A DNA stretch of 46,745 nt from a virus. A program made the translations under genes and the position numbers. This document shows positions 2,749-44,418 of this stretch, in pieces. The notes under the pieces were generated by a model, which made no database searches, was not told the origin of the DNA, and saw only the letters and a list, made by a program, of their open reading frames with translations. Every line of letters starts with the position of its first letter. The stretch's first letter is position 1. The stretch lies in IMG/VR virus record IMGVR_UViG_3300050015_001029, positions 1 to 46,745 of that record; one strand, given 5' to 3'.

Positions 2749-4701
2749 ATGTCACACAATTTAATATGGACTACAGAAATAGTCAACCAAACTTTAAGCC
2801 AACTTCGATTTGGATCCGATGTTGATCTTGATTGTTTTCATCAAAGAGATCCGGAATTAAAAGCAGATAATGTTCTTTTCCAATTAACCAAAGAAGAAGA
2901 AGAAGAATTTATTAAATGCTCTCAAAATATAGATTATTTTGTTGAAACCTATTGTCAATTTCTAACTGACTACGGAAGGCAAACAGTTAAATTAAGAGAA
3001 TTTCAAAAAGAGATTCTTAATACCCTCGGAGATGAAATATGGCTTGAAGATCTTGAGGATCTAGGACCAAGTGTTAGAAATTATATTTTAATGGCAGCTC
3101 GACAGACAGGTAAGACTACTACTATTGCTGCTTTTTTTGCTTGGTATCTTTGCTTTCATACAGATAGAAATCTTCTTATTCTTGCTAATAAACAACAAAC
3201 AACTACAGAAATTGTAGCTAAGGTAGTTTATGTTTTTCGAGGTCTTCCTTTCTTTATGAAACCAGGTATAAAACGAATCGGGGCTTTAGGATTAAACCTC
3301 GATAATGGATGTATGTTAACATCTCAAGCAACTACAAAAACAGCAGCTATTGGTTTTGCAATCCATGTATTATACATTGATGAATTTGCCCACATTAACC
3401 AGAAATTAGCTCGTTCTTTCTGGAGATCTGTTTATCCTACTCTTTCTAGTTCTAGAGTTTCTCAATGTATCATTTCTTCTACCCCTGATGGCGTTGATAA
3501 CTTATTCTATGAAATTTGGGATAAAGCAAATAAAGGTATAAATAGTTTTATTTGGAAACGAGTTGATTATTGGGAAGTTCCTGGTCATGATGATGCTTGG
3601 GCTGAACAAGAAAAAGCTAATTTTGGGGAAGAGGAATTTGCTCAAGAATACGAACTTTCATTTGATAGAAAATCCAATCTTCTTTTATCGGGATCCGATC
3701 TTGCTTGGATCAGAAGAATATCTACAAAATATAAATATCGAGAATTAGAAAAAACCGGATTGGATGAAATGGTTTATAGGGATCTTTTAAAATGGCATCC
3801 GGATTTTGATCCTAATGGGGATATTGATTCAAGGATTGTTCGATTTATACTTTCTAATGATATTGCTGAAGGTAAAGAAGATGAAGAGGATAAGGATAAT
3901 GATTTTAATGTTACAACTATTTGGGCTGTTGAACCCAAATCTAGAGCTAAATTAAGAAAATTAAGAAAAGATGAAAGAGTTATAAAAAATTTATTCAGAA
4001 TAAGGCAGGTGGGGGTATTTAGAGATAATATGGGGGATGAAGAAGTAATGGCTCATGTAAATAAAGCTATCGCTTTTGATCAACTACCTAAAGATTCTTT
4101 TAGATGGTTAATAGAAATGAATTTTAATGGAAAAGCTTATTTAAGTAAGCTTATGGAACATGAGGAATATGAAGATGCTTATGTTATGCGTTCATATCAT
4201 ACAGCTCCTGTTCCGGGAGAAAGGCATCCAAGAAAAAAAGCAGGATTTAAAGTTACATCAAATAAAGAATATTTCTGTAAATTAGGAAAAAAGCTTATTT
4301 CTCAAAAAACTATTATTCCCAATGAAAAAGAAACTTTAGCAGAATTTGGATCTTTCGGAAAAGTTAAAAATAGTTATAAAGGAATAGCAAAACATGATGA
4401 TATTGCTATGTCAACTCTTAATTTATCAAGATTTTATGAAGAATCTGAATATGCTGATTGGTTATATGATTTTTTGGATCAAATGCCAACATCTGATCTA
4501 AAAAGTTATATGTTACAGATTATTCAGGAACCAGCAGATTCAAAAGAAGAAATGAATGATAATCAATTCAAAGCTTTTTATGAACAACCAGAAAAAGCTG
4601 CTAGTGAGCAAGAAGCAATTAAACAAATATGGACTTCTCATGGAAAAGGTAGTAGTTCTAAATATCCTGGTATGGGAACCCCCTGGTCTACAAAAAGATG
4701 A
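2749..4701 (+). CDS. 17: terminase large subunit, gp17-like ATPase-nuclease
   Basis: A 650-residue packaging motor. N-terminal ATPase: the Q-motif region LREFQKEIL (about 82-90), Walker A ARQTGKTT (about 117-124), Walker B LYIDE (about 208-212) and coupling motif SSTPDG (about 243-248). The C-terminal RNase-H-type nuclease shows SNDIAEGKEDEEDKDNDF (about residue 366 on) and, near the end, KHDDIAMS, a metal-binding Asp pair like that of T4 gp17. T4 gp17 is 610 residues, so length agrees. It would translocate DNA into the prohead through the portal and cut concatemers. The start lies 1 nt after the small subunit stop, implying translational coupling. No Shine-Dalgarno sequence precedes the ATG. 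Confidence 0.95.
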   Translation: MSHNLIWTTEIVNQTLSQLRFGSDVDLDCFHQRDPELKADNVLFQLTKEEEEEFIKCSQNIDYFVETYCQFLTDYGRQTVKLREFQKEILNTLGDEIWLEDLEDLGPSVRNYILMAARQTGKTTTIAAFFAWYLCFHTDRNLLILANKQQTTTEIVAKVVYVFRGLPFFMKPGIKRIGALGLNLDNGCMLTSQATTKTAAIGFAIHVLYIDEFAHINQKLARSFWRSVYPTLSSSRVSQCIISSTPDGVDNLFYEIWDKANKGINSFIWKRVDYWEVPGHDDAWAEQEKANFGEEEFAQEYELSFDRKSNLLLSGSDLAWIRRISTKYKYRELEKTGLDEMVYRDLLKWHPDFDPNGDIDSRIVRFILSNDIAEGKEDEEDKDNDFNVTTIWAVEPKSRAKLRKLRKDERVIKNLFRIRQVGVFRDNMGDEEVMAHVNKAIAFDQLPKDSFRWLIEMNFNGKAYLSKLMEHEEYEDAYVMRSYHTAPVPGERHPRKKAGFKVTSNKEYFCKLGKKLISQKTIIPNEKETLAEFGSFGKVKNSYKGIAKHDDIAMSTLNLSRFYEESEYADWLYDFLDQMPTSDLKSYMLQIIQEPADSKEEMNDNQFKAFYEQPEKAASEQEAIKQIWTSHGKGSSSKYPGMGTPWSTKR

Positions 4702-4746
4702 GTCTGCTCAGTTCAGGTAAAAGCCAAATCATGAATAGAAGTTTTT

Positions 4747-4764
4747 TGATATATAAATAAAAGA
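4747..4764 (+). promoter_or_regulatory. T4-type late promoter before tail sheath
   Basis: Exact TATAAATA at 4752-4759 inside GATATATAAATAAAAG, in the 139-nt gap between gp17 and gp18. This is the T4 late-promoter consensus. A weaker AATAAATAA copy lies near 4812. The start codon of gp18 is about 80 nt downstream. Confidence 0.6.
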
Positions 4765-4840
4765 CATTATTTGAATAAGTCGGAAAGTAGTTTTTTAGTA
4801 ATTTTCTGGTGAATAAATAATAAAAATAAATGAAATAAAT

Positions 4841-7312
4841 ATGGCAAAACTTTCTTTAGATCTATCCCAATTTAAAGCTGCTGGCGTTTATACAGTCGAA
4901 GTAGATCAGTCTGAAAGAATTACGGTTTCTACTCAATCATTAAGATTAGTGGTTGGATTCTCAAAAATAGGTCCATTTAATGCTCCTACATTCATTCGTT
5001 CCACAAGAGACCGTATCAGATTTTTTGGTGATATAGACAAAAAGTTAGAGAAAAAAGGATCTTTCTTTCAAAGATCAATAGATACCTGCTTACTTCAAGC
5101 ACCCGTATTTGCTCTTAATCTTCTTAATGTTGGTAATGATGCTTCTACAGAATCTACTGGATTCGCTTCTCTATCAATAAACTGTGCTTCTAGTAATATA
5201 GGAATTAATACAGATCAATATATTAATTTCTTTAATAGAGAAAGATTTTGGAAAGCAGATTCCGATTATCTATTAGGGGTTGCAGGAAATGCAGAAAATG
5301 TTTCCGGTGCTAATGGTATTCAAAATACTTCTCTTTTGCAAATTGCAAATGTTGGAACAAAAACTATTTCAGTTATTATAAGAAAAGCCGTTGGACTTCA
5401 AGGTTATAGTGTTACTGCTAAAAATTGGTATGGTTCTGATACAAACATTCCTTATGAGTGGATTCGTCCTTCTGATTTAATGAAAGATTATTTTATTCAA
5501 GTTATAGCTATTGAAGGTAACTGGACAAATTATAATAACCTATCAACCGATCCATTTTTCTCAGCTTATTTTAATTCTAAAGGTGTTATACCTTCGAAAT
5601 TAAATGAATTCATTAGTCTTCCTAATGTAAGTTTAATTGGATCCTGGATTGGAACATTTATTCCAGAATTTAGAGATCAAATGGGGGCTAATCAGAATAT
5701 TGAGGATATTATTAATGCTTCAACCCCTCTTACGGGGATTTTAGTAAACGTTAACCAAGATGCTCTTGATCAGCTTAATTGGGATGAAATTTCCCAGCAA
5801 TGGAAAAGTGGAGATGGAACTACAACAGGTGGGGCTTCTCATTTGGTAGATCTTGTCGGTCACGGGCTTATAGATTTAACAACAGGCGATGTTTCAAGAG
5901 GATTTTTAAGTTATGGTATTGATGTATCTCAAAATGTTATTCATAACCAACTACATATTCAGCTTATTGGAACTACAGGTCAAAAATTCTCACTCGCTGT
6001 AGATGCTTCTAATTTACAAACATCACTTACAATAGGAACTTTTCTTAAAAAGGATGGTTCTGTAAATGGAGGATCAGGGGTAACTTATATCACTTCTAAG
6101 ATATATGATGTTTCTGCTTATGTTTATGAAACGGCAGAACCTATTTATCATTATTCAGCAACCATAAGTCCATCAGAAGCTTATATTCAAAAACCAATAG
6201 ATGATGCTTCTGTAACTACAGCATATAAATTTTTACCGCTTGATGGACTTCATTTAACCTCTAATCATCTTCCTGGATATACCACATCGGGTGCACCAGG
6301 TGTTGAAGCTGGTATTGAAAAAGTTTACTCAATGCTTGAAGATGAAGGTATTCTAAGAGGATTAACCAATCCAGATATGATCAACTTCAGATATGTTGTA
6401 GATACAATGGCTTATGGCTTACAACCTAATCTTGGGGGAAAAGTTTATCTTTCAAGACTTGCTAAGAAAAGAGGCAAATGCACTGCTATTTTAAGTGCAC
6501 CTGCAATAGCTCAGTTTGCATCAAGTCAGGATCCTTATTTCTGCGATATGTTTATTTCAGGAACAGATCCTAAACCAATATTTAGTACAGAGTATATCCC
6601 TGTAGGAGGTAATCCAGATTTACCAAGAAGCTTTAGATTCACTCTTCCAGATGAAGACAATGGATCTAAATTTACCGGGGTATTTGGACCATTTCTTACC
6701 TATACAGAAAATGATAAAACTATTTCAGTTCCACCAGCTGCGGATATCTCAAACAGCTTTGTAAGAAAATTCCTAGGGGGGGATCCATATGCCATCGTTG
6801 CTAATAAAAATGGTATCGTTTCTAATCCTAATTTAGCTGGAGTTGAATATATGGTTGATGCTCAAGATAGAAGCTATCTAGAACCATTTGGATATAATTC
6901 TATCGTTCAAAGAACTTCAACAGGGGAAATACTTATTTATGCTAACAGAACAGCTTTTCAAACTGTAAAGAGTGATTACAACTATTTACATGTTAGGGAG
7001 CTTTTAAATACAATTGAATTACAAGTTGAAGAAGTTCTAAAGAATTTTGTATTTGATTTCAATAATCCTGTAACTAGACTTACGATTGTTAATGCAATTA
7101 CTCCAATTCTTCAAAGTATCCAGGATGCTGGAGCTCTTACCCAATATGAAATTGTAATGGATGAGTCAAACAACACCCCTGATATTGTTGATGAAGGATT
7201 TGCTATTATTGATATTGGAGTTTGGGTTACTAAAGGAATGGAAAAAATCATTCAAAGAATTACAGTATACAAAACCGGTGGATCTAGCTCAGGTAGCTTT
7301 AGTTCACTTTAA
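4841..7312 (+). CDS. 18: contractile tail sheath protein, gp18-like
   Basis: An 823-residue protein between the large terminase and the tail tube, exactly as in T4. The N-terminus (SQFKAAGVYTVEVDQSERI) matches the sheath pattern in which the first strands name the protein as joining a neighbouring subunit. The C-terminal third (about 610-815: YLSRLAKKRGKCTAIL, then VLKNFVFDFNNPVTRLTI and IQRITVYKTGG) resembles the conserved sheath C-terminal domain. T4 gp18 is 659 residues; the extra length is probably a surface-exposed insertion in the middle (about 180-480). It polymerises around the tail tube and contracts at infection. Confidence 0.9.
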   Translation: MAKLSLDLSQFKAAGVYTVEVDQSERITVSTQSLRLVVGFSKIGPFNAPTFIRSTRDRIRFFGDIDKKLEKKGSFFQRSIDTCLLQAPVFALNLLNVGNDASTESTGFASLSINCASSNIGINTDQYINFFNRERFWKADSDYLLGVAGNAENVSGANGIQNTSLLQIANVGTKTISVIIRKAVGLQGYSVTAKNWYGSDTNIPYEWIRPSDLMKDYFIQVIAIEGNWTNYNNLSTDPFFSAYFNSKGVIPSKLNEFISLPNVSLIGSWIGTFIPEFRDQMGANQNIEDIINASTPLTGILVNVNQDALDQLNWDEISQQWKSGDGTTTGGASHLVDLVGHGLIDLTTGDVSRGFLSYGIDVSQNVIHNQLHIQLIGTTGQKFSLAVDASNLQTSLTIGTFLKKDGSVNGGSGVTYITSKIYDVSAYVYETAEPIYHYSATISPSEAYIQKPIDDASVTTAYKFLPLDGLHLTSNHLPGYTTSGAPGVEAGIEKVYSMLEDEGILRGLTNPDMINFRYVVDTMAYGLQPNLGGKVYLSRLAKKRGKCTAILSAPAIAQFASSQDPYFCDMFISGTDPKPIFSTEYIPVGGNPDLPRSFRFTLPDEDNGSKFTGVFGPFLTYTENDKTISVPPAADISNSFVRKFLGGDPYAIVANKNGIVSNPNLAGVEYMVDAQDRSYLEPFGYNSIVQRTSTGEILIYANRTAFQTVKSDYNYLHVRELLNTIELQVEEVLKNFVFDFNNPVTRLTIVNAITPILQSIQDAGALTQYEIVMDESNNTPDIVDEGFAIIDIGVWVTKGMEKIIQRITVYKTGGSSSGSFSSL

Positions 7313-14646: not shown

Positions 14647-15474
14647 ATGGATATTGTTTATTTGATTACTGATACATTAACGGATTTAAAATATTTAGGT
14701 TCAAAGAAAAATTGGAAAGGAGAAAATACTTATTGGGGTTCTCCTAACTGTAAAAACAAAAGATATAAAAAATATGAATTACAACAAGAATGGAAGCGTA
14801 ATTTAAAATCAAGATTAGAAACGTTTAAATTTGAAGTAATTGATTCATATGAAAATATACCTCATAAAGAACTTTTAGAAATTGAGTTATATTATCAATA
14901 TAAATTAGATGTTGTAAAATCTATGGAATATGTAAACGCAGGATTCGCTAAAAAAGGATTTTGTGGAGATACAATGAGTATTTTAACTGAAGAAGGAAGA
15001 AAAGAAAGAATTGAACATATATCAAAAGGTTTAAAAGAAAGTATTTCGAAATTAACTGATGAAGAAAGAATTAAAAAATATGGACAATTTGGTGAAGATA
15101 ATGGAAGTTATGGAAGAAAATGGTCAGATGAAAGACGAAAACATTTTTCGGAATCACAACAAATAGTTATGAATATTCCTGAAATTAACAATAAATTAAG
15201 AAAGAAAAAATTTGATAGTAGTAAAATGGGAAAATATGATAAGAATGGAGAAAATAATCCATTCTTTGGAAAACACCATAGTGAAGAAACAAAGAAACAA
15301 AATAGTGAGAAACACTTAGGAATAAAACCAGTGAATATGAAAAGAGTTCAAATTGGTGATAAAGAATTTGAAAGTTTAGCGTCAGCGTCTATAGAAACTG
15401 GAATAAAATATACAACCATCTGGCACAGAATAAAATCAAATAATGAAAAATACAAACAATATAATTATGTTTAA
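14647..15474 (+). CDS. GIY-YIG homing endonuclease with NUMOD modules
   Basis: A 275-residue protein placed 26 nt after thyA. The N-terminal GIY-YIG-like core is degenerate: VYLITDTLTDLKYLGS (about 4-19), with conserved YWGS and a Glu-rich helix later. NUMOD3-type motifs follow (GEDNGSYGRKWSDERRKHFSES; GENNPFFGKHHSEETKKQ begins near 200), then a C-terminal NUMOD1-like DNA-binding part (DKEFESLASASIETGIKYTTI, about 240-260). These proteins cleave DNA at cognate sites and spread their own gene. It is free-standing rather than in a recognisable intron. Confidence 0.8.
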   Translation: MDIVYLITDTLTDLKYLGSKKNWKGENTYWGSPNCKNKRYKKYELQQEWKRNLKSRLETFKFEVIDSYENIPHKELLEIELYYQYKLDVVKSMEYVNAGFAKKGFCGDTMSILTEEGRKERIEHISKGLKESISKLTDEERIKKYGQFGEDNGSYGRKWSDERRKHFSESQQIVMNIPEINNKLRKKKFDSSKMGKYDKNGENNPFFGKHHSEETKKQNSEKHLGIKPVNMKRVQIGDKEFESLASASIETGIKYTTIWHRIKSNNEKYKQYNYV

Positions 15475-16310: not shown

Positions 16311-17042
16311 ATGCATCATTATTGTTATATAATTACTAATATAATAACTAATCAACAATATATTGGAGATAGATCCTGTATTTGTGAACCAGAAATAGAT
16401 AATTATTTAGGTAGCGGTTTGGATCTCAAAAAAGCACAAAAAGAATATGGAATTAAAAATTTTAAAAAAGAAATTTTACAAAAATTTAATGATAGAAGAA
16501 ATGCTTCTTTATCTCAAAGAAAATATATAAATTTTTTTAAAACCCACATTTCTCAAGGTGGATATAATATAAGTTGGACAGGAGGAACAAATAACGGGGG
16601 AGGTCATTCTATAGAAACGAAATCCAAAATGAGTGAACACGGAAAAGGAAAACATTCAAATTCTTGGCCCATTTTTAATAGGATTCATAAAAAAGGAAAA
16701 ACCTATCAAGAACAAATGATTGAAATATATGGAGAAAATGAAGGAATAAATAAAACTATTGAATATAAAGAAAAAATAAGCAAAACCTCTTTAGGATCCA
16801 AAAATGGTATGTTTAATAAAGGTTTTTTATTAGAGGGATCCAAAAATGGTATGTTTGGCCAAATTTCTCCAATGAGAAATAAAAAAGTATCAGAAGAAAC
16901 TAGAATAAGCATGGGTAAATCTAAATTAGGAAAAAAACGAAATACCCGGCTATGTCCTTATTGTAATAAAAATATCGCCTATGGAAATTATACACGGTGG
17001 CACGGGGAGAATTGTAAACAAAAAAAATTAAATTATGTCTAG
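16311..17042 (+). CDS. GIY-YIG homing endonuclease with C-terminal zinc motif
   Basis: A 243-residue protein. The GIY-YIG core is YCYIITNIITNQQYIGDRS (about 4-22) followed by YLGSGLDLKKAQKEYG and a later AxLSQRKYINFFK. The middle has NUMOD3-type repeats, including a duplicated GSKNGMF unit whose DNA (a 21-nt block at about 16795 and again at about 16837) is exactly repeated. The C-terminus carries CPYCNKNIAYGNYTRWHGENC, a CxxC...HxxxC zinc module that reappears in the remnant at 39476-39745. The gene overlaps the glycosyltransferase start by 8 nt. Confidence 0.85.
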   Translation: MHHYCYIITNIITNQQYIGDRSCICEPEIDNYLGSGLDLKKAQKEYGIKNFKKEILQKFNDRRNASLSQRKYINFFKTHISQGGYNISWTGGTNNGGGHSIETKSKMSEHGKGKHSNSWPIFNRIHKKGKTYQEQMIEIYGENEGINKTIEYKEKISKTSLGSKNGMFNKGFLLEGSKNGMFGQISPMRNKKVSEETRISMGKSKLGKKRNTRLCPYCNKNIAYGNYTRWHGENCKQKKLNYV

Positions 17043-27405: not shown

Positions 27406-27849
27406 ATGAAAGCCTTAAAAGTATTTGAATCTCTTGACTTCGAAAGAGGAAAAGATCCTATTGATGTAATGGATTTAGGAATCAAATCTTGGTTGCAAAA
27501 TTTTGGTATGAATTATTTCAGATTAGGTCTAAACGGAGAAAGAGGAGAAGCGCAGGAAAAATTTAATAAGATAATGTCTACTATTAAATTTGAAGAAATC
27601 CCTGTAGATACCAAATATTTTCCATTAGAACTTATTTTTGGATATAAAGAAAATGATAGGAAATATAAACAATTTAAATTAGATTATGATTTATATTTAT
27701 CTTGTAAAAACTATCTTTCACCTCCTGAAGTATATTCTGGATATTTAACTGATGAAAAGGGAAACCCTATTGCTAATTCTTTCCCCAGTTCCGTTGGTAA
27801 ACAAGGAATTGAAACTCTTCTTAACCGAATCAATATAAAACATCCTTAA
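27406..27849 (+). CDS. tagged protein (FESLDFERGKDP)
   Basis: A 147-residue protein starting VFESLDFERGKDPIDVMDLG, the full bipartite tag of this phage. The body includes WLQNFGMNYFRLGLNGERG and ELIFGYKENDRKYKQFKLDY without a known domain. It starts 2 nt after the glycine-zipper gene and 12 nt before the RuvC-like gene. Possibly packaged with the DNA; see the tag finding. Confidence 0.55.
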   Translation: MKALKVFESLDFERGKDPIDVMDLGIKSWLQNFGMNYFRLGLNGERGEAQEKFNKIMSTIKFEEIPVDTKYFPLELIFGYKENDRKYKQFKLDYDLYLSCKNYLSPPEVYSGYLTDEKGNPIANSFPSSVGKQGIETLLNRINIKHP

Positions 27850-28485: not shown

Positions 28486-28902
28486 TTATACTTCTATTGC
28501 CTCCGCTCTTGGCAAATAAATTTTTGAGAATACAACATGCCAACCATCTCGTCCAGGTGCAGCATTGTAAATATATCTTCTTTTATTATATTTTTTAATA
28601 TAATCTATCATTTGAAGTTCCTCTTTCCAATCAAAATATTTTCCAAAAGTAACTTTTCCTTTTAAAAAAGATCTTGCTCTTTTCACAAATTGATAATTTT
28701 TTTCTTCTGGATCTTCATCACTATCATAAAATTCTTTATATTCCTCCTCAGAAAAACTATCAAAAGACGAAATTGCATTTAATATATTACTATCAATCAA
28801 TTTTGGAAGAATAGCTGCATCTCCAATTTCCATGGAAGTTTTAGGATCTTGTCCTCGTTCAAAATTTAAGGATTCTTCAAGGGATTCAGGAATGAGCTTC
28901 AT
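28486..28902 (-). CDS. tagged protein (PESLEESLNFERGQDP)
   Basis: A 138-residue minus-strand protein beginning with IPESLEESLNFERGQDPKTS followed by MEIGD, one of the clearest copies of the bipartite tag. The body is acidic (SFSEEEYKEFYDSDEDPEE), followed by a more folded end with YNAAPGRDGWHVVFSKIYLP. It is convergent with the RuvC-like gene, touching it at the stop codon. Being on the opposite strand shows that the tag is not a local tandem duplication. A late-promoter-like AATAAATAAAG lies upstream. Confidence 0.55.
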   Translation of the reverse strand: MKLIPESLEESLNFERGQDPKTSMEIGDAAILPKLIDSNILNAISSFDSFSEEEYKEFYDSDEDPEEKNYQFVKRARSFLKGKVTFGKYFDWKEELQMIDYIKKYNKRRYIYNAAPGRDGWHVVFSKIYLPRAEAIEV

Positions 28903-30695: not shown

Positions 30696-30899
30696 ATGGA
30701 AAAACCATTTTTTGAAATTCACAGATCTGTTGCTATTAATATGTTATTAAATGATGATAAAAATCCAACGCGGCATACAAATCTTAAATTAGCTGAATTA
30801 TTAGAGGAAAAATTTCCCAGATATGAAAGATCCTATCTTGTTAAGGAAGATGATTTGCCACTACAAGGTAATAAAATAAATAATGTTTTAGAATTTTAA
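30696..30899 (+). CDS. small hypothetical protein
   Basis: A 67-residue protein (MEKPFFEIHRSVAINML at the start, LAELLEEKFPRYERSYLVKE in the middle). No known domain. The upstream spacer holds ATATATAAAATAAAATG, a one-base-longer relative of the late promoter. It overlaps the GNAT-2H gene by one base. Confidence 0.45.
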   Translation: MEKPFFEIHRSVAINMLLNDDKNPTRHTNLKLAELLEEKFPRYERSYLVKEDDLPLQGNKINNVLEF

Positions 30900-31861
30900 T
30901 GTCTAAGATTACTTATACAAACGAAGTTGTTGCTTCATATTCAGGTCAAACTAATTTAGAATCTGGAATATATCTAGATGGTGAAATTTTGGGTCTTGTT
31001 GAATATGTTATTTATAGCAATGAATTAACGATAAGCCATATATTCATTAGACCGGAATTTAGAAGACAAGGATATGGATCAAGATTAATGAAATATATTC
31101 AGCATGAAAATCCACACTATAAATATAAACCTTCCATGATGACAGATGACGGAGCAGCTTTTAAACATAAAGATCTCCCTTTAGAAAATAAATTTTCTTC
31201 TTTTAATAATTGGTTATCTGAACAAAATGAGGATACCAAAATTAAAAAAGAGGAAGAAGATCCTAAATACGGCTGTATTATGATGGATGCAGACATTAAA
31301 AACTGGAAAGAATATCATATAGCTGGAATAGACGAAGATGATGTTTATTTGAAACCCTATGATGATTCTTACGGATTAGAAGAAAATCCTCATGTAACTA
31401 TTCTTTATGGGGTTCATGAAGAAGAAGTTGATCCTCAGAAAATGGCTGATATGATTGAATATTATATGAAACCAGTTACTGTGACAATTAAGGAAATTGA
31501 TATTTTTCCTGGAAAAGAATATGATGTTGTAAAATATAATATTCCTCTTACGGGTAAGCTTCAAGGATATCGAGATATTTTCTTACAAATTCCTAATACC
31601 CAGGATTTTCCAAAATTTGAACCGCACATGACCATATGTTACGTTAAATCAGGATCTGGCAAGAAGTATAAAGCGACTCTAAGAGAATCATTTCAGGTTA
31701 CATTTACCAAAGGAGTTTATTCTTGGCATTCTAATCTTGAAAAAGACCCTGATAAAACTTCTCGTAAAGTAGTTAATCTAGTAAAAAAAGAACCCGAAAA
31801 AGAGGTTCTACCCCCAAATGTAGAAAGACCAGATGCCTTACCTCCGAATATACAAAAATAG
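30899..31861 (+). CDS. GNAT acetyltransferase - 2H phosphoesterase fusion with internal tag
   Basis: A 320-residue protein. Residues 1-90 look like GNAT: ISHIFIRPEFRRQGYGSRLM (about 46-64) holds the acetyl-CoA loop RRQGYG. Residues 99-108 read FSSFNNWLSEQ, a form of the recurring tag. Residues about 125-285 show two HxT motifs, HVTILYG (His165) and HMTICYV (His243), the signature of 2H phosphoesterases (LigT/CPDase; the T4 anti-CBASS enzyme Acb1 is also in this superfamily). The end is a Pro-rich tail. It may hydrolyse cyclic or 2'-5' linked nucleotides. Acceptor of the GNAT part is unknown. The end overlaps the next gene by 29 nt. Confidence 0.7.
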   Translation: MSKITYTNEVVASYSGQTNLESGIYLDGEILGLVEYVIYSNELTISHIFIRPEFRRQGYGSRLMKYIQHENPHYKYKPSMMTDDGAAFKHKDLPLENKFSSFNNWLSEQNEDTKIKKEEEDPKYGCIMMDADIKNWKEYHIAGIDEDDVYLKPYDDSYGLEENPHVTILYGVHEEEVDPQKMADMIEYYMKPVTVTIKEIDIFPGKEYDVVKYNIPLTGKLQGYRDIFLQIPNTQDFPKFEPHMTICYVKSGSGKKYKATLRESFQVTFTKGVYSWHSNLEKDPDKTSRKVVNLVKKEPEKEVLPPNVERPDALPPNIQK

Positions 31862-33161
31862 GCCTAATGCAATTTTTACTCACTCTGTTTTAAAAGGGGA
31901 TGATCTCTATGAAGTGAATATTGTTTCGGGAGAAAAAATGAGATGGAGATATATTACTAAAGTAGACCCTAAAGCTTATCAAGTAAGCGGAGCTCTTTTA
32001 ACAAAACCTTCTCCTAAAATGATTTCAATTTTTCAGAGAATGCTACAACCTCCTATAAAAGAATCCAAATTTATAGATTTTCAGCAGTGGTTAAATGAGA
32101 GTCGGGATAAAGATTATTTAGCTTGGAGAAGAAATAATGTTACTCTTAGAGGAATAAAAGAATTAGGAAAAGAAAATCAAGTATATGGTTCTTTTGGAAA
32201 AGGCCTTTATAGTGTTCCTCTAGGTAATAAATCCATGGCTAGAGAATATGGCGGACTTTATTATCTTGTAAATGCTAAACCAAAAAATCCTAAGATTGTT
32301 CAAAATTTAAATGATGCTAAGATGTTAATTCAAAAATTAATTAATGATTTTTGTCTGGAAAAAGGAATAAAATATAGCAGAAGTTTTTTTGAAGAAAATA
32401 CAAGTATGGAAAAAGAAATGCTAAATCTTGGCTATGATGGATTAATCATTAAAGGCAGAGAAATGGTAAATTATACTCCTGAAAATGTTAAATATTATCG
32501 AACTGAAAATGAATTATATAATTGTTTTGTTAGAGAAACCACCCAATCCGAAAGTTTTATTAAAAAATTAAATATTGGGGTTAATGAATCTTTAACAAAT
32601 GAAAAATCTGTTTGGAGAAGTGCTAGTCAGGAATGGCTAAAACAGTTTATTGATAAGGGTGGAGTTATTGATCATGGAGATAGATTTATTTCATTTTCTT
32701 TTGATCCAGAATCTGGGGGACAAGATAATTTTGGTGGTAGCGAAATTATAATCGAGTTTAATGAAAAGAAACTTTTAAGACAAGGAGAAAAACAAGGGCT
32801 TGGAGAAGTAAGATATACTGCAGAGTGGATGGAAGAACATCCTGATGTTTGTGGATATATCACAGGCTACAAAACACAAGAAGAATATTTAGAAGATAGA
32901 AGTGATGATGATAATTTTCCTGATGCAAAACAATGGAAAGATGAATATTGGGAAGCAAACATTGAGGATTATGAACAGGAACAGGAAATTGTTCTTAAAC
33001 AATTAAAAGATGAAGAAGGATTAATAAAAGAAATAGTTTTTAATAAACCAGCAGATATAAGTCTTATTAATAAGTTAAAAAGAAGAGGAATTCCTTATCG
33101 AATGGGGGTAGGATTAGAAAATGATCCTCAGAAAAAACTTCAATTTGAATTATTTCAATAA
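31833..33161 (+). CDS. tandem ADP-ribosyltransferase-like protein with tag
   Basis: A 442-residue protein. After a short N-terminal region, the tag FIDFQQWLNESRD lies at about 80-92. Domain 1 (about 95-230) resembles phage polyvalent-protein ARTs: TLRGIK, GSFGKGLYSVP, AREYGGLYYL and LGYDGLIIKGREMVNYTPEN. Domain 2 (about 245-420) shows an R-S-E layout: Arg262 in SVWRSAS, FISFSFDP (Ser287/Ser289 in place of STS) and YEQEQEIVL with E383-x-E385. T4 Alt has the same order (LYRSQ, STS, EMEVIL) and is injected to modify host RNA polymerase. A second tag-like VNESLTNE separates the domains. Start chosen as the first ATG; it overlaps the previous gene by 29 nt. Confidence 0.65.
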   Translation: MPYLRIYKNRPNAIFTHSVLKGDDLYEVNIVSGEKMRWRYITKVDPKAYQVSGALLTKPSPKMISIFQRMLQPPIKESKFIDFQQWLNESRDKDYLAWRRNNVTLRGIKELGKENQVYGSFGKGLYSVPLGNKSMAREYGGLYYLVNAKPKNPKIVQNLNDAKMLIQKLINDFCLEKGIKYSRSFFEENTSMEKEMLNLGYDGLIIKGREMVNYTPENVKYYRTENELYNCFVRETTQSESFIKKLNIGVNESLTNEKSVWRSASQEWLKQFIDKGGVIDHGDRFISFSFDPESGGQDNFGGSEIIIEFNEKKLLRQGEKQGLGEVRYTAEWMEEHPDVCGYITGYKTQEEYLEDRSDDDNFPDAKQWKDEYWEANIEDYEQEQEIVLKQLKDEEGLIKEIVFNKPADISLINKLKRRGIPYRMGVGLENDPQKKLQFELFQ

Positions 33162-33623: not shown

Positions 33624-34490
33624 ATGGGGGGAAATGCTATTCAGGAATCTCGTTCTGTTACATTAGAAGAAGCTTTCAGAACAATTGCATGGATTAAAAA
33701 AGAGGTTTTTCCTAAACTCAAGGTTACCAAAATTGAAGATAAGGATATTGAATTATTGGGATCCTATGGAAAGAAAAAGGAAGAAGAAACTTATGGGGAT
33801 ATTGATATTGCAGTCTTAAATATCCCGGAAATTAACTCTATGCCAAAAAATGTAGAGCTTAATCTTTTGAGTCTTGATCTTGAAAATCTTGGATTTAAAA
33901 CTCATATTAATTATGGATTTAGAATTGTTTCATTTGGCTGTCCTATTTGGGGATTTCTTAATGAAAGGGTTCAAATTGATTTAATGTTATCAACAAATCT
34001 TGATTGGTCGAGATTCATCTATCATTCTCCAGATTTTCGCAAAGAAGAATCTAAATATAAGGGACTTTATAGAAATATTCTTCTTATGGCTCTTATTACT
34101 GAACCTACTAAAGAGATAATCAAAATATCTAAAGATGGGGGGATTGAAGAAATAGAGGTTAATATCTTAAGATATCCATTTGGCATATCTCGTGTAAGAA
34201 AAAATTTCGTAGGTAAAAAAGGATTAGTAAAGAATGGAAAAAATGTTGAAGGCTGGGATTGTTTCATAACAAACGATCCTCAAGAAGTAGTCGATATTAC
34301 TGTTGGAGAAGAGTTTAAACCAAATGATATTGATACATTCGAAAAACTATGGAAGATAGTTATGTCCCCTAATTTTCAGTGGATAAATAAACGAGAAGGC
34401 ATTATTAATCGATTTATTGAATGTATTCTTGAACAGGGACTTATAATTCCAGAAGAAGCAAAAGAACAATATTTTAAAATAATTGCATAA
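33624..34490 (+). CDS. polymerase-beta-fold nucleotidyltransferase
   Basis: A 288-residue protein with a classical nucleotidyltransferase signature: LLGSYGKKKEEETYGDIDIA (about 44-63) with the GS pair and catalytic Asp59/Asp61, and the third Asp in RVQIDLMLS (about 115-123). The rest is helical, with KRYPF-like basic segments. Proteins of this superfamily transfer a nucleotide to RNA, protein or small molecules; a related type recurs in T4-like marine phages beside ligase-like genes. Here it stands at the head of a set with a HxGH-type nucleotidylyltransferase and a ligase-like protein, suggesting a common pathway. Substrate unknown. Confidence 0.7.
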   Translation: MGGNAIQESRSVTLEEAFRTIAWIKKEVFPKLKVTKIEDKDIELLGSYGKKKEEETYGDIDIAVLNIPEINSMPKNVELNLLSLDLENLGFKTHINYGFRIVSFGCPIWGFLNERVQIDLMLSTNLDWSRFIYHSPDFRKEESKYKGLYRNILLMALITEPTKEIIKISKDGGIEEIEVNILRYPFGISRVRKNFVGKKGLVKNGKNVEGWDCFITNDPQEVVDITVGEEFKPNDIDTFEKLWKIVMSPNFQWINKREGIINRFIECILEQGLIIPEEAKEQYFKIIA

Positions 34491-34491
34491 T

Positions 34492-34881
34492 ATGAGCAAA
34501 ATTGTTTTTGAATCTTTAGAACAGTTTGAAGGTAAGGAAATCATTAAACCAGGGGATTTAGTTTATTTTTTATATGATTATACATTAGAAAAAGGCCTTG
34601 CTGAATTTATAGGAAATAAAAATATAAAAATTGCAAAAACAAGATGGGATGATTCGATATATTATAAGCGTGTTCCTATTGAAAAAGTTGTATTATCTGA
34701 TGAAATGATATGTATTGTTTGGGAACGGTGGAAAGGAAAAAATGGTCGGGGAGGATATAGAATAGAAAAAAAATTATATAAAAATCGTCAAAAATTAGCT
34801 AAAGAGTGGCCATATCAGGCTTTAGTATGGGAAGATTTCTTTGGGAAAGAAAGTAATTATATAGATCCACGATTAGAATAA
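34492..34881 (+). CDS. tagged protein (KIVFESLEQFEG)
   Basis: A 129-residue protein from ATG at 34492 (the longer frame needs a TTG inside the previous gene). It begins SKIVFESLEQFEGKE. Directly after, DLVYFLYDYTLEKGLAEFIG and the following strands look like a small beta-barrel (SH3-like) fold; the end is WERWKGKNGRGGYRIEKKLY with a basic surface. It lies 1 nt after the nucleotidyltransferase gene. Possible packaged nucleic-acid-binding protein by inference. Confidence 0.55.
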   Translation: MSKIVFESLEQFEGKEIIKPGDLVYFLYDYTLEKGLAEFIGNKNIKIAKTRWDDSIYYKRVPIEKVVLSDEMICIVWERWKGKNGRGGYRIEKKLYKNRQKLAKEWPYQALVWEDFFGKESNYIDPRLE

Positions 34882-34893
34882 AATAAATTAAAT

Positions 34894-35676
34894 ATGAAAG
34901 ATGTAACAGTATTATTTCCAGGAGGTTTCAAACCATGTACCGGCGGTCACCTTTCTCTAATTCGTCGATATTCAGAACATCCTTCTGTAAAAGAGGTATG
35001 GGTTCTTGTAGGACCTGGTGTTCGAGAGGGAATTAGCCAGCATGTAGCTGTTGAAATACTCGAAAATTTAACAGAAGGAATGCCAAAGGTATTTATACAA
35101 GCAGTTCCTTGGCCATCTCCTGTATTAGCTTGCTATAAAATTGTTGAAGCAGCGGATCCAGGATGTTATGCTCTTGCAGCATCTTCTAAAGAAGAAGAGA
35201 ATGCTAAAAGAATAAAAGATTTTGTTTTTAAGCATTCAAATGAAGGTAAATTTTACCGTCCGGATGTTCAAGTGGTTGAACTACCAATTAACATAGAACC
35301 TAAACTATATGAAGGAAGAACTGATGAAAAAGAAGGAAAACCTATATCAGCTTCTATTCTCAGAGAAGATCTCATTAAAGGGGATTTAAGAAATTTTATA
35401 ACAGCATATCCGGATTTATCTGAAGAACAAGTTTCTTTTATATGGGATACTCTTGAACAATCTATTATTCTACCTGATGTAGAACCATTATCAGAAGCTC
35501 TTAATACTTCAGGAACTCCAACGGTAAGTTCTTCAGGAGGTTATGACAGATCCCAACCTGGATACAATTATAGAAGTCAATTCCCAATTGCAGATTTAAG
35601 TGAAGAAGATGAGGAGGAACCTCTAAAAGATTGGGAATGGAATGAAACAAAGAAAACTTGGACACGAAAAAAATAA
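34894..35676 (+). CDS. HxGH-superfamily nucleotidylyltransferase
   Basis: A 260-residue protein opening with VTVLFPGGFKPCTGGHLSLI; TGGH (residues 16-19) is the T/HxGH nucleotide-binding motif as in CoaD and NadM/NadR-type enzymes. ISASILR at about 151-157 is the second signature (ISxSxxR). The core is about 185 residues; the rest is an acidic, disordered tail ending in DWEWNETKKTW. Likely reaction: adenylyl or cytidylyl transfer to a phosphorylated small molecule, with NMN as one option. In phages such enzymes can rebuild NAD+. Neighbouring nucleotidyltransferase and ligase-like genes fit a nucleotide- or RNA-repair role. Confidence 0.7.
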   Translation: MKDVTVLFPGGFKPCTGGHLSLIRRYSEHPSVKEVWVLVGPGVREGISQHVAVEILENLTEGMPKVFIQAVPWPSPVLACYKIVEAADPGCYALAASSKEEENAKRIKDFVFKHSNEGKFYRPDVQVVELPINIEPKLYEGRTDEKEGKPISASILREDLIKGDLRNFITAYPDLSEEQVSFIWDTLEQSIILPDVEPLSEALNTSGTPTVSSSGGYDRSQPGYNYRSQFPIADLSEEDEEEPLKDWEWNETKKTWTRKK

Positions 35677-35679
35677 TAC

Positions 35680-36861
35680 ATGGCAGGATCAGCTGGACAT
35701 ATTTTATCTCCATGGGAGGATGGGGAATTAACATTTGGACAAATTAGAGAAATAATTACCAGAGCCCTTTCTGGAACTCTTGATAATCCATCAGAAAAAT
35801 TGGATGGGCAAAATATTATGATGACTTATAAAAATGGTCATGTCTATGTTGCTCGTACCCCTAAACAGCTTCGTAATTGTGGAGCTGAAGCTATTCGTTG
35901 GGATCTCATAGGGGAATATATGAAAACCTCAGAATCCAAAGAAGCTTATTCAAAAGCTGCTGAAGATTTACAAACTATTTTATTCTTTATAAAAGAAAAA
36001 AATCTCCAAGATTTCTTTCAAGATGGAAAATATTGGCTAAATATGGAGTTATTAACTCCTTTAATGGAAAATATCATTCCCTATGGCAAAAGTCAACTCA
36101 GAATTCATAATATTCAAGCAGAGGAAGGAATTGCTGATATAGATCTATATTCTTTTATAGAATTTCTTAAAAAAGCTCAGGAAGAAGTTAATTTAGGAAC
36201 TTATGAAATTGATAAAACTAATAGGGTAAATTTTAAAGTTATGGATCCCCAAGAATTTCTCCCAGAACTTGATAATTTGATGTATGAAATGAATTTGGTT
36301 GAAGGAAATTCTATTAAGGATTTTTTAGCAATTGAATTTTGGGAATTTATAAATTTTGAATTTGATAAAATAAATGATCATGATTTTGAATTAATTCAAG
36401 GCCTTATACGAAGATGGGCATATTCTGATAAATCTACTAATATTAAAAAACTTTTATCTGGAAAAAATCCAAAGGTAGTTCAATGGGTAAGGGAAACAGA
36501 TCCTAATATTGAAGATATAAAAACTGAATTTTTAGAACCTATAATTGAATTATTTTCAAAAGTTGGCTCAAAAGTTCTTTTAAATTTAAAAGATATTGCT
36601 TCATCAGATTTTGTTGAAGCTAAAAAATCCATAATTGCCAAAGCTGAAGATGCGATAAATAGGATGAAAGAATACCATGAAAAATCCAAGTTTTTAAAAG
36701 TCCAATATGAAAGATTTCTTAGAGCTGGAGGATTTGACTCAATAGCACCAATAGAAGGGATTGTATTTGAATTCAAGGGAAAACTATTTAAACTTACCGG
36801 AAGTTATCTTCCACTACTTAAAATAATCAGCTTCTTCCGTTTCGGAAGGGATAATAAGTAA
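35680..36861 (+). CDS. ATP-dependent ligase-like protein (DUF6267-type)
   Basis: A 393-residue protein whose ends carry ligase-like motifs: SEKLDGQNIMMTY (KLDG, residues 40-43; motif I, with Lys as the possible adenylated residue), ARTPKQL, NMELLTP (Glu123; motif III-like) and near the C-terminus EGIVFEFKGKLFKLTG (motifs IV-V). The middle is a long helical insertion. The start AGSAGHILSPWEDGELTF resembles a family found in T4-like cyanophages (DUF6267 as I recall it). It could be an RNA ligase or an inactive relative. It starts 3 nt after the nucleotidylyltransferase and overlaps the next gene by one base. Confidence 0.65.
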   Translation: MAGSAGHILSPWEDGELTFGQIREIITRALSGTLDNPSEKLDGQNIMMTYKNGHVYVARTPKQLRNCGAEAIRWDLIGEYMKTSESKEAYSKAAEDLQTILFFIKEKNLQDFFQDGKYWLNMELLTPLMENIIPYGKSQLRIHNIQAEEGIADIDLYSFIEFLKKAQEEVNLGTYEIDKTNRVNFKVMDPQEFLPELDNLMYEMNLVEGNSIKDFLAIEFWEFINFEFDKINDHDFELIQGLIRRWAYSDKSTNIKKLLSGKNPKVVQWVRETDPNIEDIKTEFLEPIIELFSKVGSKVLLNLKDIASSDFVEAKKSIIAKAEDAINRMKEYHEKSKFLKVQYERFLRAGGFDSIAPIEGIVFEFKGKLFKLTGSYLPLLKIISFFRFGRDNK

Positions 36862-37658
36862 TGCAAGCCAAGCAAGTTCATTTTGAAAGGGGAGGAGATC
36901 CTAAAGACGTTATACGAATAGGGGATGTTAAAGGAAGAGCTTTTGCAAGAGCTAAAGTCGAAATTTCTAAAGAAATGGATCGGCTGGTAACTACTTATGG
37001 AGGAACCTCCAGAATTTATGGAATTTATAAAACTCGGGAGCAAGAAGGAATTCGAGGATCCTGGAACCCCGGAAGAGGATATAGATATGTTATTGATTTT
37101 TCTGATACAAATGAAGACTATTTTTATTTCCCAGAAAAATATACTATAGGAGGTGAATGGCGTGGAACTTACGGAGGTAGAAAATCGGCAAGAGAAGCTG
37201 CTGATGAACTTATTGCTCAATGGGGTGGAAAAATATCTGAAGCCCAGAATTTCGAAAGAGGAATGGAACCAAAAAGAGCTATGAAAGTAGGTCATCATAG
37301 AAATGATCTTTTCAATGAAATCAAATCTATGTCTTTTGAAGATGCAACAGAATATTTTCCAGAATTAGGATCAGATACTGATCAAAAAATTTTAATTTTA
37401 GCTGCTCACATGCTTAAAGTTTCTGAAAAAGAAGTTAGAATTGCTATGGATGGGGATGCTCCTATTTATAGCGATAATCCTTTAATGGATGAATATTTAT
37501 CAAGGGATTGGCAATATGGTAAAGAGGATTCTTTAGAATCTACTTATATTGATGGTTCAATTGCAATATTTGATTTAATAGGTTCATCAACAGGAGAGAT
37601 TTATGTTAAAGATAGCAAATCAGACGAATTTCTTTACATCTTAGGAGCTATCAATTAA
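36861..37658 (+). CDS. double-tagged protein (two FERG motifs)
   Basis: A 265-residue protein with two copies of the phage tag: QVHFERGGDPKDVIRIGDV at about 5-23 and EAQNFERGMEPKRAMKVG at about 127-144. Each is followed by a distinct globular part: the first (about 25-120) is Gly/Arg/Tyr-rich (GSWNPGRGYRYVIDFSDTNE), the second (about 145-265) is acidic and helical, ending SDEFLYILGAIN. It looks like two tagged genes fused end to end, which suggests that the tag marks protein starts. No known domain. One-base overlap with the ligase-like gene. Confidence 0.6.
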   Translation: MQAKQVHFERGGDPKDVIRIGDVKGRAFARAKVEISKEMDRLVTTYGGTSRIYGIYKTREQEGIRGSWNPGRGYRYVIDFSDTNEDYFYFPEKYTIGGEWRGTYGGRKSAREAADELIAQWGGKISEAQNFERGMEPKRAMKVGHHRNDLFNEIKSMSFEDATEYFPELGSDTDQKILILAAHMLKVSEKEVRIAMDGDAPIYSDNPLMDEYLSRDWQYGKEDSLESTYIDGSIAIFDLIGSSTGEIYVKDSKSDEFLYILGAIN

Positions 37659-37673
37659 AATAATTATAAAATT

Positions 37674-37997
37674 ATGCTAAAGGAAATTACAAATCAAAAT
37701 TATGATGAAGTAGTTATGAAATCGGGTAAACCTGTTATTGTAGATTTTTGGGCTGAGTGGTGTAGTCCTTGTAAAGTTATTTCTCCTTTAATGGAAGAGC
37801 TTTCAAAAGAATATGAAAAAGAAATAGAAATTGTTAAATGTGATGTAGATAAAAATCCAGAATTATGTAGAAAATTTAATATAAAAAGTATTCCTGCAGT
37901 TTTCTTTATGAAAAAAGGAGAAATTTTTGATAGCAAAATTGGAGCAAGTTCTAAAGCAAATTTTATTAGAAAAATTGAACTTTTTTTAATGTCATGA
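37674..37997 (+). CDS. trxA: thioredoxin
   Basis: A 107-residue thioredoxin of normal length. Active site FWAEWCSPCKVISP (WCSPC in place of WCGPC), conserved Asp in VIVDFW, KCDVDKNPEL and the cis-Pro loop IKSIPAVFFMKKG. Cytoplasmic disulfide reductase; in phages it can donate electrons to ribonucleotide reductase. No reductase gene is seen in the window. It overlaps the next tagged gene by 4 nt. Confidence 0.95.
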   Translation: MLKEITNQNYDEVVMKSGKPVIVDFWAEWCSPCKVISPLMEELSKEYEKEIEIVKCDVDKNPELCRKFNIKSIPAVFFMKKGEIFDSKIGASSKANFIRKIELFLMS

Positions 37998-38335
37998 AAG
38001 CACAATTCGTTAGAGGAAAAGATCCCAAAGATACTTTAAGAATAGGTATAGAATCTATTTTATGGAATGCAAATCTTGAGGAGGATCTTTCTTTTGATGG
38101 GGTTGTTTATCTTGTTGATGACATGAATCAATCCGATGAAGAGCTTTATGAAATGCTAAAGCATCTTATTGAGTTTGGGAGCATAATTAAGAAAGAAGAT
38201 GATAGAATTCTTTATAAAACAGAATTAGGCCCTATTATTTCTGAAGAAAATGATTACGGAGCTGGTTATTTTTGTCATATTTCTTCCTTACCAGAGATAG
38301 AAAAAAGACTTGGAAGAAAAATAAATACAGAATAA
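37994..38335 (+). CDS. tagged protein (FVRGKDPKDTLRIG)
   Basis: A 113-residue protein starting AQFVRGKDPKDTLRIGIES, the second half of the bipartite tag. The body resembles a small winged-helix-like module: YLVDDMNQSDEELYEMLKHL, IEFGSIIKKEDDRILYKTE and a final EIEKRLGRK. It overlaps thioredoxin by 4 nt and is followed by a terminator. Confidence 0.55.
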   Translation: MKAQFVRGKDPKDTLRIGIESILWNANLEEDLSFDGVVYLVDDMNQSDEELYEMLKHLIEFGSIIKKEDDRILYKTELGPIISEENDYGAGYFCHISSLPEIEKRLGRKINTE

Positions 38336-41197: not shown

Positions 41198-41663
41198 TGA
41201 TTTTATCAAAGAAAATCCTCCGGAAAATAAAGAAAGAGATGATACCATGGAAGTTCGTTTTGCTAAGGAAAGAGCAGAATGGACAGTCAAGGTGAATAAT
41301 ATGTCAATAATGATGAGAAAAATTGTTGATACTGCTGAACTTATGACTTCTCTTTATACAGAAAGACAGCGTGCTGTAGAATATTATTATTATCTTATTT
41401 CATTATTATCTAAGATAAGTAAAACTTACAGAAAGCAATTTAGTGAAAAATATGATTTCTATACTTATAAAACCCAAAAAAGATTCCCTAATGAAAGGGT
41501 TAAAGAAATTCAAATTATGACAGACTTAGCGCCTACAGTTTTCTTAAAAGAGCAAATTGAAAATCATTCCAAATTTATAGATCGAACTATTTCTACTCTT
41601 GATAATATTATTTTTGGAATAAAATCCAGAGTTGAAATAGAACAAATTTTAAGAGGAAAATAA
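41154..41663 (+). CDS. uvsY: recombination mediator UvsY
   Basis: A 169-residue helical protein (T4 UvsY: 137). The C-terminal half aligns by eye with T4: LKEQIENHSKFIDRTISTLD and IIFGIKSRVEIEQILRGK against LDFCSGALDAIKSRGFAIKH...FEAGK, in particular the A/GIKSR motif. A longer N-terminal acidic tail is present. UvsY loads UvsX recombinase on gp32-coated ssDNA. As in T4, uvsW follows, though here a homing endonuclease gene is inserted between them. Confidence 0.75.
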   Translation: MEEETVLQTIPSSFDDFIKENPPENKERDDTMEVRFAKERAEWTVKVNNMSIMMRKIVDTAELMTSLYTERQRAVEYYYYLISLLSKISKTYRKQFSEKYDFYTYKTQKRFPNERVKEIQIMTDLAPTVFLKEQIENHSKFIDRTISTLDNIIFGIKSRVEIEQILRGK

Positions 41664-42373
41664 TGAAAGATTTTTATGTATATTTAACAACTAATTTAAT
41701 CACGGAAAAACAATATATCGGAGATCATTTTATAAATCTAAAAGAAAGAAATTATTATATAGGAAGTGGTCAATTATTTTTAAAATCTGTTAGAAAGCAT
41801 AAAAAATATAATTTTTTTAAAGAGATAATTGAATGGTTCGAAACGCGAGAAGAAGCTTTTAATGCACAAGAAAAATATATAAAAATATTCAATACTTTAG
41901 TTCCTAATGGGTATAATCTAAGTCCGAAAGGGGGATTACTTATTAAAGGAGCTTTATCAGGGGAGTCTTTAATAAAAATGAGAGCTGGAGTTTCCAAATC
42001 AAATAAGGGAATGATTGCATGGAATAAAAACAAAAATTTATCTAAGGAACATAAAAAAAATTTAAGTATAGGTCTAAAAGGTAAAAATAAAGGAAAAATA
42101 TTATCGGAGGAAACCAAAAGAAATATGTCTTTAAATTCCCCAAATAGATCTGGAGATAAAAATCCAATGTATGGAAAAAGTCAAAAAAATGAAACTATCC
42201 TTGAAATAAAAAGAAAAAGATTAAAATATAATAATATTAGTTTATCTAAAGAAACTCTTTTAGAAATAAAAGGATTATATAAAAAAATATCAAATGTGGA
42301 AATTTCTAAGAGATATAATCTAAAATATATGACAGTGAGAAATATAATTAAGGGAAAATATGACTGGATATGA
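41663..42373 (+). CDS. GIY-YIG homing endonuclease between uvsY and uvsW
   Basis: A 236-residue protein. GIY-YIG core: FYVYLTTNLITEKQYIGDHF (about 4-23), YYIGSGQLFLKSVRKHKKYN and NAQEKYIKIFNTL. NUMOD3-type repeats follow (GKNKGKILSEETKRNMSLNS; GDKNPMYGKS) and the end has a helix-turn-helix-like segment (LLEIKGLYKKISNVEISKRY then NLKYMTVRNIIKG). The gene is wedged between uvsY and uvsW with 1-nt and 4-nt overlaps, so it is translated with them without breaking either. Confidence 0.85.
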   Translation: MKDFYVYLTTNLITEKQYIGDHFINLKERNYYIGSGQLFLKSVRKHKKYNFFKEIIEWFETREEAFNAQEKYIKIFNTLVPNGYNLSPKGGLLIKGALSGESLIKMRAGVSKSNKGMIAWNKNKNLSKEHKKNLSIGLKGKNKGKILSEETKRNMSLNSPNRSGDKNPMYGKSQKNETILEIKRKRLKYNNISLSKETLLEIKGLYKKISNVEISKRYNLKYMTVRNIIKGKYDWI

Positions 42374-43938: not shown

Positions 43939-44418
43939 ATGAAAGCTAGTTTTGTATCGGAACGTTTAGAGCATTTTCAGCGAGGAAGGGATCCTTATGA
44001 CTCTTTAAACATTGGAGATGTTGAAAAAAGAAAAGTAGTTATAGATGTTTCTAAAAATAAGGAATTAGCCTCTCTCAAAAAATTTGGAATAAAAACCCTT
44101 CTTAAAACTAAAAATGCTCATGGTGGCATTGTCTATATTTGGAATGCTACAGATACAGCTTTTATAGGCATAGGTTATTTAGATGGGAATTGGTCTTTGG
44201 GATTATGGGGAGCCTTTGGAAGTTCCAAAGGTGACAATAGTATAGGAGTTAAAGATGAGACCTGGGATGCATTACTGAATACTTCTGAATTTGAAGATTA
44301 TGTAGATGAAATAAAAGATAATAAGTTTATAGATTCTAGCAATTGGGATTTGCAAACTACCAAAGATATTTATAATTATTTTAATTATAATGTTACAAAA
44401 GGATATCCAAATAAATAA
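43939..44418 (+). CDS. tagged protein (SERLEHFQRGRDP)
   Basis: A 159-residue protein starting SFVSERLEHFQRGRDPYDSL followed by NIGDVEKRK, a full bipartite tag. The body looks folded: KKFGIKTLLKTKNAHGGIVY, WNATDTAFIGIGYLDGNWSL and GLWGAFGSSKGD, alternating hydrophobic strands. No family recognised. It begins a unit after the uvsW terminator, with a weak late-promoter match upstream. Confidence 0.6.
   Translation: MKASFVSERLEHFQRGRDPYDSLNIGDVEKRKVVIDVSKNKELASLKKFGIKTLLKTKNAHGGIVYIWNATDTAFIGIGYLDGNWSLGLWGAFGSSKGDNSIGVKDETWDALLNTSEFEDYVDEIKDNKFIDSSNWDLQTTKDIYNYFNYNVTKGYPNK

Follow-up and report, generated by a model that had tools for sequence, protein, structure and literature searches.

We propose that a 442-residue protein encoded by a T4-like phage (31833..33161, + strand) is, on balance, probably a head-packaged precursor of two ADP-ribosyltransferase (ART) domains, which is possibly split after LNE89 and VNE252 and injected into the host. 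The open reading frame lies in a virus record of 46,745 bases (IMGVR_UViG_3300050015_001029), a fragment analysed over its whole length and referred to here as the window, and comprises an N-terminal beta-domain, a tag, ART domain 1, a linker and ART domain 2. Because two putatively NAD-using domains are each preceded by a signal like that which loads proteins into the T4 head, we think it likely that the protein enters the head, is cleaved into two parts and is injected. In the mechanism we infer for packaging, cleavage, catalysis and targets, the F..F..WLNE tag, helped by the weaker VNE of the linker, would draw the protein into the prohead core, where a prohead protease of the gp21 type would cut after LNE89 and possibly after VNE252, releasing domains 1 and 2 as separate small proteins. 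Both would enter the bacterial cell together with the phage DNA and use NAD+ to ADP-ribosylate host molecules, domain 1 acting as an R-Y-E form akin to the polyvalent ARTs and domain 2 as an R-S-E-type ART, and the injected domains would disarm or reprogramme the bacterium. The domains, their key residues, the tag and the protease of relatives, on which this proposal builds, are read from sequence.

Source Virus and Gene

Matches of window genes to terminase, sheath and neck proteins indicate a T4-like myovirus, with a terminase closest to those of the Lak phages of Prevotella (36-39% identity). The T4-type late promoter TATAAATA occurs at 21 sites in the window, against 11.4 expected, and none of 100 shuffles reached 21. 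Three window proteins (14647-15474, 16311-17042 and 41663-42373) were judged by eye to be like GIY-YIG homing endonucleases, and several similar proteins, also recognised by eye, are found in locus L038.

The open reading frame and every motif named by an earlier sequence-only reading of this DNA are in place. Its first ATG (31833) has a weak ribosome site and gives a 29-nt overlap with the upstream gene (31833-31861); a later ATG (31938, M36) is preceded by GGGAG, a better ribosome site, and the true start may therefore be M36. The tag is internal with either start codon. Residues 1-75 (31833..32057, +) make up a small domain rich in beta-strands, the strands at residues 13-43 being modelled by AlphaFold2 at moderate confidence, and a search of related loci for relatives of this segment was empty. 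The full protein has no sequence match in Pfam, NCBIfam, PADLOC or PDB and nothing significant in PHROGs, and Foldseek, run with the model of the whole protein, gave nothing informative in PDB and weak matches in BFVD, the top one being named PolyVal ADP-ribosyltransferase.

Domain 1 as a Probable R-Y-E Member of the ART Superfamily

Domain 1 (aa 92-236, 32106..32540, +) carries R106 within NVTLRG, GKGLYS at residues 122-127 and GYDGLIIKGRE at 200-210, and represents a new phage family. In IMG/VR, pattern and profile scans recovered about 19 relatives that share 41-64% identity with the window copy and were found in phage only; the sole match in genome_contigs (L032, Moraxella) lies in the region of a helicase gene and was rejected as due to chance. 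R106, GxGLY126 and E210 (the GRE of GREMVNY) are invariant in 18 relatives, and little or no variation is seen across the family at R106, G122, G124, Y126, G200-G203, GRE 208-210 and V212. None of the 18 members has a significant Pfam match, and neither Pfam nor PHROGs includes the family. Many of the relatives stand alone, at about 165 aa, and have a short tag at the N-terminus; others sit inside proteins of 470 to 1,913 aa, several of them multi-domain, where the partners are, case by case, a CCA-adding-enzyme head domain, a lysozyme, GNAT domains, the Pfam ART-PolyVal domain or a DUF3990 match. In L005 the relative lies beside other ARTs within one polypeptide.

When the domain 1 profile was compared with 562 phage proteins, the ART-PolyVal domain of L005 ranked first (E 8.6e-6, well separated) in a match that spans 31 columns only and pairs GREMVNYTPENVKYY with GSEIVIFDPKNIKFI on the E motif. 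At rank 4 of the 562 stood a protein called PARP by Pfam (6.8e-28), whose GSMFGDGIYFA aligned with YGSFGKGLYSV of domain 1, in register at GxGLY. Since the E-motif and GxGLY alignments both fall on ART landmarks, domain 1 is most likely a member of the ART superfamily with an R-Y-E configuration. Polyvalent ARTs are defined by H-Y-D (PMC5512222), of which domain 1, with R106, Y126 and E210, has only the Y. The earlier description of it as a polyvalent-type ART stands as far as profile similarity goes and gives way on standard membership, domain 1 having R and not H on strand 1 and belonging to no Pfam family; the lack of the strand-1 histidine also tells against our packaged-precursor reading.

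Two further loci touch on this family. A 51-codon domain 1 remnant, 69% identical, is present in another phage (L001:9998-10177, the same place as L007), apparently left behind after recombination, and in L012 a domain 1 gene has, at a distance of about 4-5 kb, a gene for a phage WGR-PARP protein (L012:11064-12314, - strand; Pfam PARP 7e-28).

Domain 2 and Its Single Relative

Domain 2 (aa 258-442, 32604..33158, +) is ART-like and of the R-S-E type, with R262 in VWRSA, FISFSFD at residues 285-291 and E383-Q-E385 inside EQEQEI (381-386). Searching phages, plasmids and viral contigs directly gave nothing or chance-level matches, and syntenic loci were found by anchoring on the neighbouring adenylyltransferase. 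The one clear relative is a standalone gene in a related phage (L045:2690-3268; E 5.5e-31, 36% identity), which occupies the same slot just upstream of the adenylyltransferase and keeps R262, F285-I-S287-x-S289, ESGGQDxFGG and E383xE385. The motif set of the Alt/VIP2 R-S-E enzymes, in which Arg belongs to strand 1, S-x-S to strand 2 and E-x-E to strand 5, is thus present in domain 2 at the level of motifs, with this one homologue. R262 and E385, on whose conservation the sequence-only reading had staked itself beforehand, are both kept in it, and conservation in the relatives supports its claim of two ART-type domains, each keeping residues of a catalytic type.

AlphaFold modelled domain 2 with low confidence (mean pLDDT 52, pTM 0.54). 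Against PDB the model matches Tpt1 best (E 0.04, probability 0.93), and DarT also appears, at ranks 3 and 16; all of these are ART-superfamily proteins, which is a hint, not proof, of an ART-like fold. Domain 2 has no significant sequence similarity to any characterised ART, and in hhalign comparison with 525 targets ModA ranked 16, Alt 264 and ModB 384. The specific tie to T4 Alt that had been suggested is accordingly not borne out, and a sequence-level relationship to Alt, ModA and ModB gained no support, the catalytic R and S segments of ModA being in register at a score within the decoys. Also rejected were a tagged WR..GIYWSWD ART-like family (L004, L028-L031), alike by eye and without hhalign support, and, on inspection, the 218-aa proteins of L028 and L029. 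A single relative, a mean pLDDT of this order and the want of significant similarity to a characterised ART all count against the packaged-precursor reading.

Tag, Linker and Putative Cleavage Sites

The tag FIDFQQWLNE|S (aa 80-90, 32070..32102, +) resembles a capsid-targeting sequence, and a prohead protease may cut after its E89. IPII and IPIII of T4 begin MKTYQEFIAE|A, and FIDFQQWLNE, set against KTYQEFIAE, has the T4 form of an aromatic 10-mer ending in L/I-x-E. The T4 sequence is N-terminal, however, whereas the tag of the target is internal, which weakens our proposal, and a strict N-terminal-only model fails for both tagged genes of the window. Among 1,161 predicted genes of related loci, F..[FW][LI]NE lies within the first 25 residues in seven cases and at another position in one, the target (Fisher p = 1e-7, with partial redundancy, since some matches are orthologues). 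The tag stands at the extreme N-terminus of unrelated enzymes in L034, L035, L038, L039 and L040, examples from L038 being KFTNFKTWLNE|N and MSKFITFKQWLNE|A.

The same signal is seen around the neighbouring enzymes. Orthologues of the adenylyltransferase come in two forms, one starting directly with the enzyme domain (MNK|ITVLFPGG) and one with a prefix of roughly 18 residues before it, and in L030 and L036 the enzyme is fused to an RNA-ligase-like enzyme through the junction YYLNE|SVVSKV, whose YYLNE|S sits where standalone ligase-like proteins have the tag WLNE|AITPTV. In polyvalent relatives [LI]xE precedes 15 of 20 domain starts, compared with 37% of random windows (p = 6e-4); a stricter junction pattern gave p = 3e-7, but was picked after looking. 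The N-terminal recurrence and the match to IPII and IPIII indicate that the packaging-type tag of the sequence-only reading is a genuine signal. The linker VNESLTNE (aa 250-257), which had been noted between the domains, includes VNE252|S (32580..32588, +), a possible second cleavage site, and its VNE (250-252) aligns with INE in MRAHFINE|E, the tag with which the standalone L045 protein begins.

A gp21-type protease (Peptidase_S77) is encoded in five records bearing domain 1, and in the two major capsid proteins inspected from Peptidase_S77 records the propeptide, as judged against T4 gp23, finishes with FLINE|A and YMINE|S respectively. T4 gp21 cleaves after L/I-x-E (PMC9026906), a rule from which VNE departs, and no prohead protease was found in the 46.7-kb window fragment; both points speak against the precursor we propose. 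The domains might instead be ARTs made and used in the infected cell, like T4 ModA and ModB, and left unpackaged, with the tag serving otherwise, for example in tethering the enzymes to a phage structure. The internal position of the tag in both tagged window genes would suit this, as would the RNA-ligase-like and adenylyltransferase genes described below, which could act in the cell, and packaging of the target is itself a deduction from sequence. Yet the tag resembles both the T4 capsid-targeting sequence and the cleavage sites in the major capsid proteins of relatives, and it occurs as a removable N-terminal prefix on unrelated enzymes; we consider use in the infected cell unlikely.

Comparison with Known Systems

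T4 Alt, with the N-terminus MELITELFDE, is a packaged and injected mono-ADP-ribosyltransferase that modifies host RNA polymerase, which may be a candidate target for the present protein as well. The packaged precursor that we favour shares with Alt, ModA and ModB the R, S, E motif layout (in domain 2), a packaging-type signal and a T4-like phage, but it has no significant sequence similarity to them, contains two different ARTs and carries its tag internally. With IPI-IPIII of T4 it shares a short aromatic tag ending in L/I-x-E before unrelated cargo, but the tag is internal, the cargo enzymatic and there are two cargos per chain. Phage polyvalent proteins (ART-PolyVal/Tox-ART-HYD2, PF18760; PMC5512222) likewise have several ART or effector domains per polypeptide and are thought to be injected, and the target, with two distinct ART-type domains and an N-terminal domain in one phage protein, is polyvalent in this sense. 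ART-PolyVal and domain 1 have in common the GYDG..E motif and GxGxY, and domain 1 relatives lie within such proteins in L004, L005 and L006. The target differs in having R for H and E for D at the active positions and in falling below Pfam detection, and the polyvalent relatives of domain 1 differ from published polyvalent proteins in their L/I-x-E sites at junctions.

The double-domain arrangement had been thought unusual, but published polyvalent phage proteins contain several ARTs, in as many as 12 copies (PMC5512222), and ARTs have been argued to be often packaged in myoviruses (PMC9503650); the concept is therefore not new. What is new here is the addition of two ART families that neither Pfam nor PHROGs contains, the mixed ART pair and the evidence for tags at fusion junctions. 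We suggest, more tentatively, that the polyvalent proteins of T4-like phages may be polyproteins, in which tagged enzyme units are fused head to tail and split in the head by the prohead protease, such that one gene would load several injected enzymes and the tag would be a general cassette for any enzyme. If junction cleavage is true, very large polyvalent proteins could pass the narrow portal as separate pieces. F..[FW][LI]NE and similar sequences would also offer a readable signal for spotting injected proteins annotated without function in uncultured T4-like phages.

Neighbouring Genes

The upstream partner gene (30899..31861, +) encodes a GNAT domain, a tag and a 2H phosphoesterase domain (Pfam GNAT 5e-8; 2_5_RNA_ligase2 1e-4, below its cut-off; PHROG 755 5e-8). 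Its internal tag is FSSFNNWLSE|Q (aa 99-109, 31193..31222, +), and its 2H region matches a polyvalent protein of L029 at 1e-26; the 2H phosphoesterase also has weak similarity to Acb1 (anti-CBASS; E 0.0014, below cut-off). Downstream lies an enzyme cassette (33624..36861, +) with a nucleotidyltransferase-like gene, a gene at 34483, an adenylyltransferase (34894) and an RNA-ligase-like gene (35680). The adenylyltransferase has weak matches to NCBIfam adenylyltransferases and is 47% identical to its L030 orthologue; the nucleotidyltransferase-like and RNA-ligase-like names follow from sequence motif only.

The 2H, nucleotidyltransferase-like and ligase-like genes adjoin the target, as would be expected of an RNA-repair kit in which the two domains, like KptA/Tpt1, use NAD+ on RNA and together with these enzymes undo host tRNA cleavage, and the fusion of domain 1 relatives to CCA-adding-enzyme domains and the rank of Tpt1 among PDB matches of the domain 2 model point the same way. 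Tpt1/KptA needs a conserved histidine, however, and the two domain 2 sequences (target and L045) have none in common, their motifs fitting R-S-E instead and the model being of low confidence, and we regard RNA repair as quite unlikely. A further reading, in which at least one of the two domains is an ART fold that has lost catalysis and serves to bind NAD+, ADP-ribose or a host protein, seems highly improbable, since the acid and the Y/R positions are invariant across divergent relatives in a way that would point to catalysis, although strand 1 of domain 1 carries R where H is usual and domain 2 has one known relative.

In L036 the slot upstream of the adenylyltransferase is occupied by two tagged genes (4371-5450 and 5447-6046; MRAKFIYGNILNE and MRARLINE) with the ART-like motifs LYHRS and YYFRG, which gives this slot the look of a hot spot for effectors. 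Otherwise different small proteins of the window (27406-27849; 28486-28902, - strand; 36861-37658; 37994-38335; 43939-44418) share a second recurrent tag at their N-termini, F.RG.DP....IG (for example LNFERGQDPKTSMEIGD), and a matching INE.F..DSDPI.DMGIG tag is found at the N-termini of other proteins in L038 and L040. The 265-aa protein at 36861-37658 carries this second tag in two places (aa 7 and about 132), as though formed by tandem fusion of two tagged units.
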